From: Lentisphaerota bacterium
GTDB lineage: Bacteria; Verrucomicrobiota; Lentisphaeria; Victivallales; Victivallaceae
Length of the DNA: 64,000 nt
Reading direction: 5' to 3'
Assembly: GCA_015061885.1 (NCBI GenBank)
Contig: SUVS01000002.1
Location: forward strand, 1-64,000
The notes below the pieces were generated by a model. That model ran no database searches and was not told where the DNA came from. It saw only the letters and a program-made list of their open reading frames with translations. Below, piece after piece: positions 4,294 to 54,853 of this stretch. How positions within the stretch are numbered: the first letter of the stretch is position 1; each line of letters opens with the position of its first letter. The translations under genes and the position numbers were made by a program.

Positions 4294-5082
4294 ATGACCT
4301 CATGGGAAAAATTTGAAATCAACAGTACTGATTATTTGAATAATACCTTTGGGCAATATGCCGGTTTCAGGCATTGTGGCGGTACTGATTCAACAAAATC
4401 AGACATAAAAGTTATCACAAAAAGCAAAGATGAGTTTTATATAGAAGCTAAAGAGTGCCCGGCTCAATGCGGTCAGTTTGTCCTGTTGCCTGATATTGAA
4501 AGCGGCACATTCGCTTACAGTAAACAAAATACTACGCCTTTAAACTCTCACGCTTCTGCCATTATAAATCATATGAATGATTTTTTTGAAGAATATAAAG
4601 AAGCGGGGACTGCCGGTAAAGATATTTATTTTACAGATTGCTCACAGGTCTTTACAGACTGGATCGTTCAACATTACAAAGATAAAAATGTCCGGTTTAT
4701 AATCACCAATAACAATACAATATTGCATACAGAAAAATTCGCAGATTTTTTTATTGTTACGGCAAAATACCGGACAAAACGAAGTGGTTCCGCAACTGTC
4801 GGAAAAAAAATAATGCCACTGGTTGAAAAATACTTGCAAGATAACTTTTCCGTAATGAATATTTTGTATGAAGGCAGAAATTTGTTTATTTCATCCAATG
4901 ATGATTTGCATAATCAGCGGTTTGTTATTGCTGACCGAGAATACAGGCTCTCCCGCAGTGGAAATAGGTACGAAATACGCAAATTATCAAATACATTCAA
5001 CGCCAATGTTATTTTCTCCATCAATATAAAATCAGGCGTACAAGGTTTGAGTATTCCGGAATTCATTGCCTGTCTGAAGTAA
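4294..5082 (+). CDS. Type II restriction endonuclease, PD-(D/E)XK type
   Basis: A protein of about 262 residues, identified as the endonuclease partner from context and a visible nuclease core. GGTDSTKSDIKV (about 29-40) supplies the acidic residue D37, and FYIEAKE supplies E51-x-K53, the D...ExK pattern of PD-(D/E)XK enzymes. It then reads CPAQCGQFVLLPD. ATG 4294 has AGGAGAG seven bases upstream; an ATG at 4252 would lack one. It is probably expressed from the controller promoter. It ends two bases from the convergent methyltransferase gene. The recognition site cannot be read from sequence. Base composition is AT-richer than the neighbours, suggesting transfer. Confidence 0.85.
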   Translation: MTSWEKFEINSTDYLNNTFGQYAGFRHCGGTDSTKSDIKVITKSKDEFYIEAKECPAQCGQFVLLPDIESGTFAYSKQNTTPLNSHASAIINHMNDFFEEYKEAGTAGKDIYFTDCSQVFTDWIVQHYKDKNVRFIITNNNTILHTEKFADFFIVTAKYRTKRSGSATVGKKIMPLVEKYLQDNFSVMNILYEGRNLFISSNDDLHNQRFVIADREYRLSRSGNRYEIRKLSNTFNANVIFSINIKSGVQGLSIPEFIACLK

Positions 5083-11334: not shown

Positions 11335-12185
11335 TTACCCGCCATTTCTGCGGCGACGGTAAGGGCAGCAACGGTCATTGCCGCATCGTGTACCCGCAAA
11401 AGTGATACATCTGCATCGGCGAGTTTTACCGCCAACGCCAGCGAACCTGCTATGCGTTTAGCCAGTGTATCCGGCTCGCTTTTCAGCAGACTTTTTCTTG
11501 ATACGCCCCAGCAGAACGGCAAATCGAACTCCTTTTCCAAAGTTCCGGCGTTCCGCAAAAGTTCGTAATTTCCCGCCCGCGTCTTGCCGAAACCGATACC
11601 AACGTCGAGCATGATCTGGGAAGATTTTATATTCTGCCGGGAAGCATTTTCCAGAATTCCCCCCAAGCCCAGCCGGACGGTTTTCAGCGTATTACCGGCT
11701 ATAACTGTACCGCTTGTCTGCATAACTTCCGGTACGCCTGAAGAATGAGTGAGAATACATCCGCAGCCGTATGCGGCAATCACTTCTGCCATATTGCGAT
11801 CAAAAGTCAAACCGCTGACATCATTGATGATTTTTGCCCCATTTTGCAGAGCTTTTTCCGCTGTTGTGCTGTGGCGGGTATCTATGCTGATTATTGTTCC
11901 GGGGCGTTCAGACAATATGCCCTGCAATACAGCTTTTATCCGCTCCCACTCCGCGTCCGGCTCAACTTCCGCCGCCCCCGGCCGGGTGGATTCACCGCCC
12001 AGATCAATAATATCCGCCCCTTCGTCGAGCAGCTGCAAAGCGAACTTTATGCGTTCAGCGTGATCCAGAGTGCCGTGCCGGTCGGAAAAACTATCCGGCG
12101 TGGCATTGACTATCGCGGCAATAAGCGGGCGTTTTCCCCGCAGTGGAGCCAACAGCTCCCGCCAGGAGAAAACGCCCTTATTCAT
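11331..12185 (-). CDS. folP: Dihydropteroate synthase
   Basis: A 284-residue enzyme that condenses hydroxymethyl-dihydropterin diphosphate with p-aminobenzoate in folate synthesis. Signatures are IVNATPDSFSD (pterin/Mg binding), DEGADIIDLGGESTRPGA, SIDTRHSTTAEKAL, IINDVSG, LDVGIGFGKT and the closing RVHD. One departure is LTHSSG where most enzymes have LMHMRG. The gene starts 19 bp after gyrA and overlaps yraN. Confidence 0.93.
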   Translation of the reverse strand: MNKGVFSWRELLAPLRGKRPLIAAIVNATPDSFSDRHGTLDHAERIKFALQLLDEGADIIDLGGESTRPGAAEVEPDAEWERIKAVLQGILSERPGTIISIDTRHSTTAEKALQNGAKIINDVSGLTFDRNMAEVIAAYGCGCILTHSSGVPEVMQTSGTVIAGNTLKTVRLGLGGILENASRQNIKSSQIMLDVGIGFGKTRAGNYELLRNAGTLEKEFDLPFCWGVSRKSLLKSEPDTLAKRIAGSLALAVKLADADVSLLRVHDAAMTVAALTVAAEMAGK

Positions 12186-53229: not shown

Positions 53230-53305
53230 GGCGGGTTAGCTCAGTCGGTAGAGCAGCGGAATCATAATCCGCCTGTCGCTGGTTCGATCCCGGCACCCGC
53301 TACCA
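53230..53305 (+). tRNA. tRNA-Met (anticodon CAT)
   Basis: A 76-nt tRNA with acceptor stem GGCGGGT / ACCCGCT, discriminator A and encoded CCA. The D-arm is GCTCAGTCGGTAGAGC. Anticodon stem GCGGA/TCCGC encloses ATCATAA, giving anticodon CAT. The T-arm is GCTGGTTCGATCCCGGC. The position-1 to 72 pair is G-T, so it is not the initiator type with a 1-72 mismatch; a lysidine-modified tRNA-Ile is less likely. Confidence 0.92.
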
Positions 53306-53424: not shown

Positions 53425-54393
53425 TTAATCGGCTTTGCGGTATTCGCTGCTGGTGCGGCAACGGACTTTTTTTACCGGATATGCCAGAGCATTGCGGAAA
53501 AGTGATGCCATTTCCAATGCCGTCAGACGCCCATCGGGATAAGTTGTCCCTAAATAACGCCCCGCAAAAATATCCAGTTTGGTCAGCACCAGATACAGCG
53601 GCAGAGTATCCACTTGCAAGTGTTCGCAGAGTATGTTCAGAAACATACCGGTCTTTTCTCCGGCCTCGTAAAGTGCCGGGGCAAGCTGCAATTCAGTTAC
53701 CGGTGCGGTCAAATTCTGTTTTTCTGCTAATTTTGCCAGATTAAGCGACAGCCGGAAGTTGGGGTAAAGACGGCTGATATTGGAAATGGTTATGATTTTC
53801 TCTTGATAAAGCTCTTTGAGGTTTTCCGGCAGTAAACGGGTTATTTCAGCACTGCTCAAAAGCAGTTTGCTACCGGTAGTGTTTTCGCTTGCCGGCAGCG
53901 GCGGAGCCGTCGGCAGAGTGCGGTGTTCGTAATAGCGGGCAAGCTCCAGATAAAGTGCCGGCGAGGCACTGCTGATATTGAGCTGACGCAGGGAATCGAC
54001 CACCTTTTCCGCCAATTTTTCCGCCAGCGGCTCCTGCACGCCCAAATGCCGGATTATCAGCGAAGTTGCATCGCTTTTGTTGGCGTCCAATGTTATATAC
54101 AAATGGCTGTTGGAGCGGCGGAATACCTGGGCTACATTGGCGTAACCGGCATTTTCCAGAATCCGCGTTACGGCGGCATCGACTTCGCTCTGGGTGAAAA
54201 TGCGTTCACTGCGGAAACTCTCCGCCATTGCCGCTTCCACCGCACAGGCAATATCTTCCGCCAGATAGCCGTTGGAATTGCCGGAACTGTCGAAGGCTTC
54301 CTGCAAAGAGCTTTTGAGTTTATCCACATCAAAGAGCTGTTGTCTGCCTTCGGAATCTATTACATAAAGGAAATTGTCGGTAATGGAAAGCAT
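53425..54393 (-). CDS. ATP-cone domain protein next to nrdR, function unknown
   Basis: A 322-residue protein. The N-terminal 95 residues match the ATP-cone fold of nucleotide-reductase regulators: GRQQLFDVDKLKSSLQEAF, DIACAVEAAM, IFTQSEVDAAVTRILENAG and VAQVFRR. This aligns by pattern with the ATP-cone of NrdR next door. The rest (about 100-322) has mostly helical, leucine-rich segments such as LYLELARYYEHRTL and LNLAKLAEKQ, and no family was recognised. It starts 13 bp after nrdR. It may sense dATP/ATP with NrdR or act on ribonucleotide reductase, which is inference. Confidence 0.65.
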   Translation of the reverse strand: MLSITDNFLYVIDSEGRQQLFDVDKLKSSLQEAFDSSGNSNGYLAEDIACAVEAAMAESFRSERIFTQSEVDAAVTRILENAGYANVAQVFRRSNSHLYITLDANKSDATSLIIRHLGVQEPLAEKLAEKVVDSLRQLNISSASPALYLELARYYEHRTLPTAPPLPASENTTGSKLLLSSAEITRLLPENLKELYQEKIITISNISRLYPNFRLSLNLAKLAEKQNLTAPVTELQLAPALYEAGEKTGMFLNILCEHLQVDTLPLYLVLTKLDIFAGRYLGTTYPDGRLTALEMASLFRNALAYPVKKVRCRTSSEYRKAD

Positions 54394-54406
54394 TGTCGGG
54401 AAAAAC

Positions 54407-54853
54407 TTACTTGAGTGATCTTATTTCGTTGATAAATTCTTCAACATCATGGAATTTGCGGTAAACGCTGGCAAAGCGTACATACGCCACCTGATCGAGT
54501 TGTTTCAGGGCGGTCATCACGCGGTTGCCGATTTCACTGCTGGCGACTTCGCGGTCAAAATCCCGCTGTAAAGACTGACTTACATCGTCGATGACCCGAT
54601 TGATCTCTTCGGGGTCGATCGGGCGTTTGTAGCAGGCATTTTCAATACCTCTGCGTAATTTATCGGCATCAAAGTCTTCACGCTCATTGTTGCGTTTGAC
54701 TACTTTGAGTTCGCTTTGGATAATACTTTCATAAGTGCTGAAACGGTGCGAACAAGCCAGGCACTCCCGGCGGCGGCGTACCCCGAAACCTTCTTTTATC
54801 ACCCGCGAATCAATAACTTTATCATCCTGAAAACCGCATACCGGACAACGCAT
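54407..54853 (-). CDS. nrdR: Ribonucleotide reductase transcriptional repressor NrdR
   Basis: A 148-residue NrdR repressor. The N-terminal zinc ribbon is CPVCGFQDD with CLACSHRFSTYE, and the ATP-cone contains REDFDADKLRRGIENACYKR and SSEIGNRVMTALKQLDQVAY. It represses ribonucleotide reductase genes when dATP is bound. No nrd reductase genes are in this window. The downstream gene encodes another ATP-cone protein. Confidence 0.95.
   Translation of the reverse strand: MRCPVCGFQDDKVIDSRVIKEGFGVRRRRECLACSHRFSTYESIIQSELKVVKRNNEREDFDADKLRRGIENACYKRPIDPEEINRVIDDVSQSLQRDFDREVASSEIGNRVMTALKQLDQVAYVRFASVYRKFHDVEEFINEIRSLK

Follow-up and report, generated by a model that had tools for sequence, protein, structure and literature searches.

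NrdR is described as a near-universal, one-protein regulator that reads ATP and dATP through its own ATP-cone and represses the synthesis of DNA building blocks. ATP-cones serve as oligomerisation interfaces both in NrdR and in ribonucleotide reductases (RNRs). In Streptomyces coelicolor NrdR, nucleotide binding, oligomer state and DNA binding all depend on residues V48, K50, E56 and K62 (PMC9110341), and mutants of these residues are impaired in all three (PMC9110341, PMC12176259). A precedent for a degenerate cone is found in the class Ib reductase NrdE of Bacillus subtilis, whose truncated cone lacks the A-site residues and builds a dimer interface (PMC6572854). No protein partner of NrdR is described in the open-licence literature covered here. 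PDB entry 9a6n is an integrative model of a Soj-NrdR complex, which suggests that NrdR can have protein contacts; no paper describing this entry was found in the same literature.

The window analysed here (the whole 64,000-nt stretch of DNA) belongs to a Lentisphaerota genome of 2.96 Mb in 98 contigs, estimated to be 89% complete. Its nrdR product is a typical NrdR, scoring 178.9 bits against TIGR00244 of NCBIfam (cut-off 124.65, E 5.7e-53) and matching Pfam PF03477 (9.9e-25) and PF22811 (6.3e-20). The first-pass annotation had reported a gene 13 bp past nrdR. The open reading frame, its ATG start and the 13-bp gap from the nrdR stop are all present; the coordinates given for it, 53425-54853, mark the right region but span both genes (Table 1). 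The product is referred to here as X.

Table 1. Features of the nrdR-X locus, in window coordinates
Feature	Coordinates	Strand	Description
nrdR	54407..54853	(-)	148 aa; Zn-ribbon and intact ATP-cone (equivalents of K50, E56 and K62 all present)
X, undescribed nrdR-linked protein	53425..54393	(-)	322 aa ORF, ATG start
X residues 10-89, ATP-cone fold without nucleotide-binding residues	54127..54366	(-)	Pfam, Foldseek, residue counts
X residues 97-322: three-helix segment, linker, alpha/beta C-terminal domain	53428..54105	(-)	AlphaFold2; no known family or solved fold
tRNA-Met (CAT)	53230..53305	(+)	ARAGORN; convergent with X, downstream bound of the nrdR-X unit

Like NrdR, X carries an ATP-cone fold, and its N-terminal position is shared with the cones of the RNR subunits NrdA, NrdD and NrdB. 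The cone assignment, made initially from the sequence, is borne out by a PF03477 match above the Pfam cut-off (29.1 bits against 25.8, E 1.5e-6) and by the AlphaFold2 model of the full-length protein (pLDDT 90.6), which matches the cones of NrdR (9fxk/7p37) and NrdB (5olk) with a Foldseek probability of 1.00; Foldseek matches to RNR cones also include 8p28 and 9d3x. The model superposes on 9a6n with an rmsd of 2.3 Å over 96 columns. PF03477 was matched at E<=0.01 in 53 of 81 X relatives, and in some relatives the cone falls below Pfam detection. Unlike NrdR, X has no Zn-ribbon: neither its CxxC pairs nor a match to TIGR00244 or PF22811 was found, placing X outside the NrdR family. Unlike the cone-bearing RNR subunits, it has no catalytic or radical-generating domain.

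The main departure from both groups lies in the residues that, in NrdR, contact the nucleotide. In the X of the window, K50 is replaced by D and E56 by Q, with K62 kept (S. coelicolor NrdR numbering). Among the neighbouring NrdRs (n=49), K50 is conserved in 49, E56 in 46 and K62 in 48, and the K and R of the ACxKR motif are each present in 49. The corresponding counts in the long form of X, to which the window protein belongs, are 2/82, 7/82 and 8/83 for K50, E56 and K62, and 2/83 and 1/83 for the ACxKR K and R; no long-form protein has both K50 and K62. In the short form described below, K50, E56 and K62 are each found in 0/26, the last being Trp in 26/26. The X cone has thus kept its fold and lost its nucleotide-binding residues in nearly all X proteins. 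The first-pass annotation had taken X to carry the same sensor as NrdR, a reading which the loss of these residues does not support. The truncated NrdE cone is similar in this respect, but is part of a reductase, whereas X is a stand-alone protein encoded beside nrdR.

The remaining ~230 residues of X, another difference from NrdR, were initially described as ~220 residues of no recognised family, and this description holds. Residues 97-322, modelled alone with a pLDDT of 93.1, have no credible match in Pfam, NCBIfam, PHROGs or PDB sequences; the PDB sequence profiles gave matches only to designed helical proteins and to a single zinc-finger protein. Foldseek comparison with the PDB detected no solved fold, the best matches being to AAA+ proteins (E 6.5e-3, TM 0.21). 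The linker, at about residues 160-176, is poorly conserved. A second ATP-cone at residues 100-160, considered on the basis of its helix pattern, is not claimed because hhalign gave only weak matches (E 1.6e-4 to the short-form cone and 0.03 to the protein's own cone). A likeness to NrdD seen by eye (LPExxxLYxxKIIxISNISxLFP) found no support from hhalign or from the C-terminal fold search.

X is present in 57 of 61 close relatives of the window's genome, and its long form in 178/198 Lentisphaeria genomes (80/82 of the high-quality ones). The family searches covered the Verrucomicrobiota, many of whose genomes are metagenome-assembled (MAGs), and full-length coverage by the long-form profile was confined to Lentisphaeria. 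One match outside this class, in genome G166, led to a short form of X: a protein of 186 aa encoded directly after nrdR. With this single sequence as query, the short form was matched in 163/236 genomes of a second Verrucomicrobiota class; nrdR lies directly upstream at 30/30 inspected loci, with a gap of >100 bp in one (L176). A plasmid search for the short form found none. The N-terminal pseudo-cones of the two forms are homologous (hhalign E 2.4e-15). An iterated profile search from the C-terminal domain drifted onto the cone, and therefore supports only cone homology. In further Verrucomicrobiota lineages, the gene after nrdR encodes a diverged protein of ~190-225 aa, most of which aligns co-linearly with the short form (E 7e-7) and which is more weakly similar to the long form (E 6e-4 for the C-terminal half and 4e-3 for the N-terminal half). 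By a count made by eye, an X-like frame is directly downstream of nrdR in 14 of 19 non-Lentisphaeria loci that have nrdR. Two other loci (L235 and L244, families f41 and f21) have an ORF of ~165-172 aa between nrdR and a HIT-like gene; it shows no detectable similarity to X and is possibly a further diverged X.

The conserved pairing thus spans Lentisphaeria and one or more further classes of Verrucomicrobiota. The dN/dS values among eight proteins closely related to the short form are 0.04-0.19, and by this measure X is under strong purifying selection. Given these ratios and the presence of the family in most genomes of the class, X is a real gene and not a chance ORF. The loss of the nucleotide site in a protein that is under purifying selection speaks for a pseudo-cone that retains a function rather than for a decaying one. 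X is best explained as an undescribed Verrucomicrobiota family that combines a distinctive C-terminal domain with a pseudo-ATP-cone, long in Lentisphaeria and short elsewhere. The open-licence titles and abstracts found on ATP-cones or NrdR in connection with Verrucomicrobia, Akkermansia or anti-repressors do not describe it.

Apart from the G166 protein, the ATP-cone-only matches outside Lentisphaeria whose sequences were examined are five ATP-cone/kinase-like proteins of 458-665 aa. Verrucomicrobiota of other classes (L142-L144 and L146, from G094, G099, G176 and G208, and L141, from G115) have a protein of ~450-500 aa in which a phosphoribulokinase/uridine-kinase (PRK) domain is joined to an ATP-cone that looks intact (VKRDGN); one member matches the Pfam ATP-cone at 3.5e-23 and PRK at 5.1e-16. 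No mention of this fusion was found in the paper search. It may act as a nucleoside kinase gated by nucleotides.

The nrdR and X genes are adjacent in 25 of 30 relatives. At 90 non-redundant loci, the start of X lies -14 to +79 bp from the nrdR stop, and in 37 of these the two frames overlap by 1 or 4 bp, an arrangement often seen with translational coupling. The gene order in Lentisphaeria is often ymdB-nrdR-X, extended to rny-ymdB-nrdR-X in family f8. At the G166 short-form locus (the one such locus with neighbours listed), the next gene after nrdR-X is HIT-family-like and is neither rny nor ymdB; nrdR is therefore the neighbour common to both classes. There are exceptions to the linkage. 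In genera g8 (Victivallis, including V. vadensis), g16 and g36, X and nrdR are on different contigs, and in one g16 genome X directly follows a dapB-like gene. In g40 and g22, a ClC channel gene lies between the two. In family f8, one genome (G055) has ymdB-nrdR-X and two (G043 and G050, 96% and 95% complete) have ymdB-X, with no NrdR found anywhere in either assembly; this is an apparent clean loss of nrdR, with X intact, in two of the three genera of the family. Contig splits and missing genes could be effects of MAG assembly, although whole genera agree. X had been proposed as a co-regulator with NrdR: the pairing is conserved and the frames often overlap, but an obligate co-regulator is made less likely by the genera in which X is unlinked and by the two nrdR-less genomes that keep it.

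In the window's genome, a single RNR was seen, a class III NrdD preceded by an nrdG-like reading frame; because the assembly is incomplete, it may lack a further RNR. Two NrdR-box-like palindromes with 32-bp spacing precede nrdG-nrdD on contig C32 (L181:4329-4344 and 4361-4376). Four NrdR-box matches were obtained where 0.28 were expected, and 0/200 shuffles reached this number. On the basis of this two-box element, NrdR in this genome probably represses nrdGD. Autoregulation of nrdR-X was also considered and set aside: no NrdR-box pair occurs near these genes in the window, and they are under no recognisable NrdR box. RNR classes differ among X-bearing genomes. G043 and G050 both still carry an RNR; that of G050 is a cone-less class II enzyme (NrdJ), no full NrdD was found there, and X is the sole ATP-cone detected. 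With nrdR absent and only this cone-less RNR present, neither proposed cone partner of X was found in G050. In a g40 genome (G164, L112:4526-12166), nrdR, the ClC channel gene (clcA) and X are convergent with trxB, nrdD and nrdG; its nrdD has a C-terminal glutaredoxin-like extension, and a single NrdR-like box (12163-12178) overlaps the nrdG start.

Given the loss of its nucleotide-binding residues, X probably grips another protein and is not an ATP sensor. The reading we favour, tentatively and somewhat short of even confidence, is that X is an undescribed ATP-cone protein, blind to nucleotides, which takes part in NrdR or RNR control through protein contacts. X would be made together with NrdR, and its cone would be a surface for docking, independently of nucleotides, in the cone assemblies of NrdR or RNR. 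By pairing with an NrdR cone (or an RNR cone), it would shift the NrdR oligomer responsible for repression of the nrd operon, acting as either an anti- or a co-repressor, and the C-terminal domain may be the effector or a second contact. The conserved adjacency, the frame overlaps, the lost residues, the two-box nrdGD target and the g40 arrangement of nrdR-clcA-X convergent with trxB-nrdD-nrdG are all consistent with such docking. Against it stand the lack of an NrdR box near nrdR-X in the window and the unlinking of X in g8, g16 and g36. The main counter-evidence is that X is kept in G043 and G050, both lacking NrdR and the latter with no cone-bearing reductase detected; this raises the standing of the alternatives. 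The narrower proposal, that X is the first dedicated NrdR partner, a decoy cone that joins NrdR (or RNR) assemblies and determines, irrespective of ATP and dATP, how the repressor responds, is conceivable but doubtful.

X may instead bind RNR itself and tune its activity or assembly independently of NrdR; co-expression with NrdR would then reflect the role of both proteins in dNTP control. Such direct modulation of the reductase is possible: X persists without NrdR in two genomes that retain an RNR, it adjoins the nrdD operon in g40, and cones are the activity switch of RNRs (PMC5794259, PMC11226230). It is nevertheless an unlikely account of X, which normally lies beside nrdR and not beside RNR genes; G050 has only the cone-less NrdJ, and one conserved RNR contact is not obvious given the differing RNR classes of X-bearing genomes. 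A function unrelated to dNTP control, for instance with the rny-ymdB RNA-turnover genes upstream, would make the place of X after nrdR inherited synteny. The recurrence of the rny-ymdB-nrdR-X block in Lentisphaeria, the ymdB-X pair that stays when nrdR is missing and the retention of X when moved, as in the g16 genome with the dapB-like gene, all point this way, but the domain represented by the X cone is found mostly in dNTP control, and at the G166 locus nrdR-X is followed by neither rny nor ymdB, so that we regard an unrelated function as improbable. It is less probable still that X senses a nucleotide at a non-canonical site. The fold is intact, F58, part of the adenine-pocket lining, is retained in 74/83 long forms, and B. 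subtilis NrdE binds dAMP in its truncated cone (PMC6572854); however, the phosphate and adenine contacts tested are lost, the K62 position is uniformly Trp in the short forms and the cone is beyond Pfam detection in some relatives. Finally, a degenerate reductase, in which the cone would be joined to remnants of an NrdD or NrdA catalytic barrel, can be dismissed as very improbable: RNRs do rank first in the Foldseek search of full-length X, but with the TM of ~0.2 and rmsd of ~20 Å expected from superposition of the cone only, no RNR is among the 50 best fold matches of the C-terminal fragment, hhalign against NrdD is negative (probability <1%), no catalytic-barrel or glycyl-radical segment was found and the C-terminal part matches no solved structure or sequence family.

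The presence of a conserved pseudo-cone beside NrdR makes the question of whether NrdR has a partner directly testable, and the genomes G043 and G050, in which X has outlived NrdR, are a natural test of X acting alone. If the decoy-cone reading is true, the Verrucomicrobiota would control dNTP synthesis by a two-protein switch.
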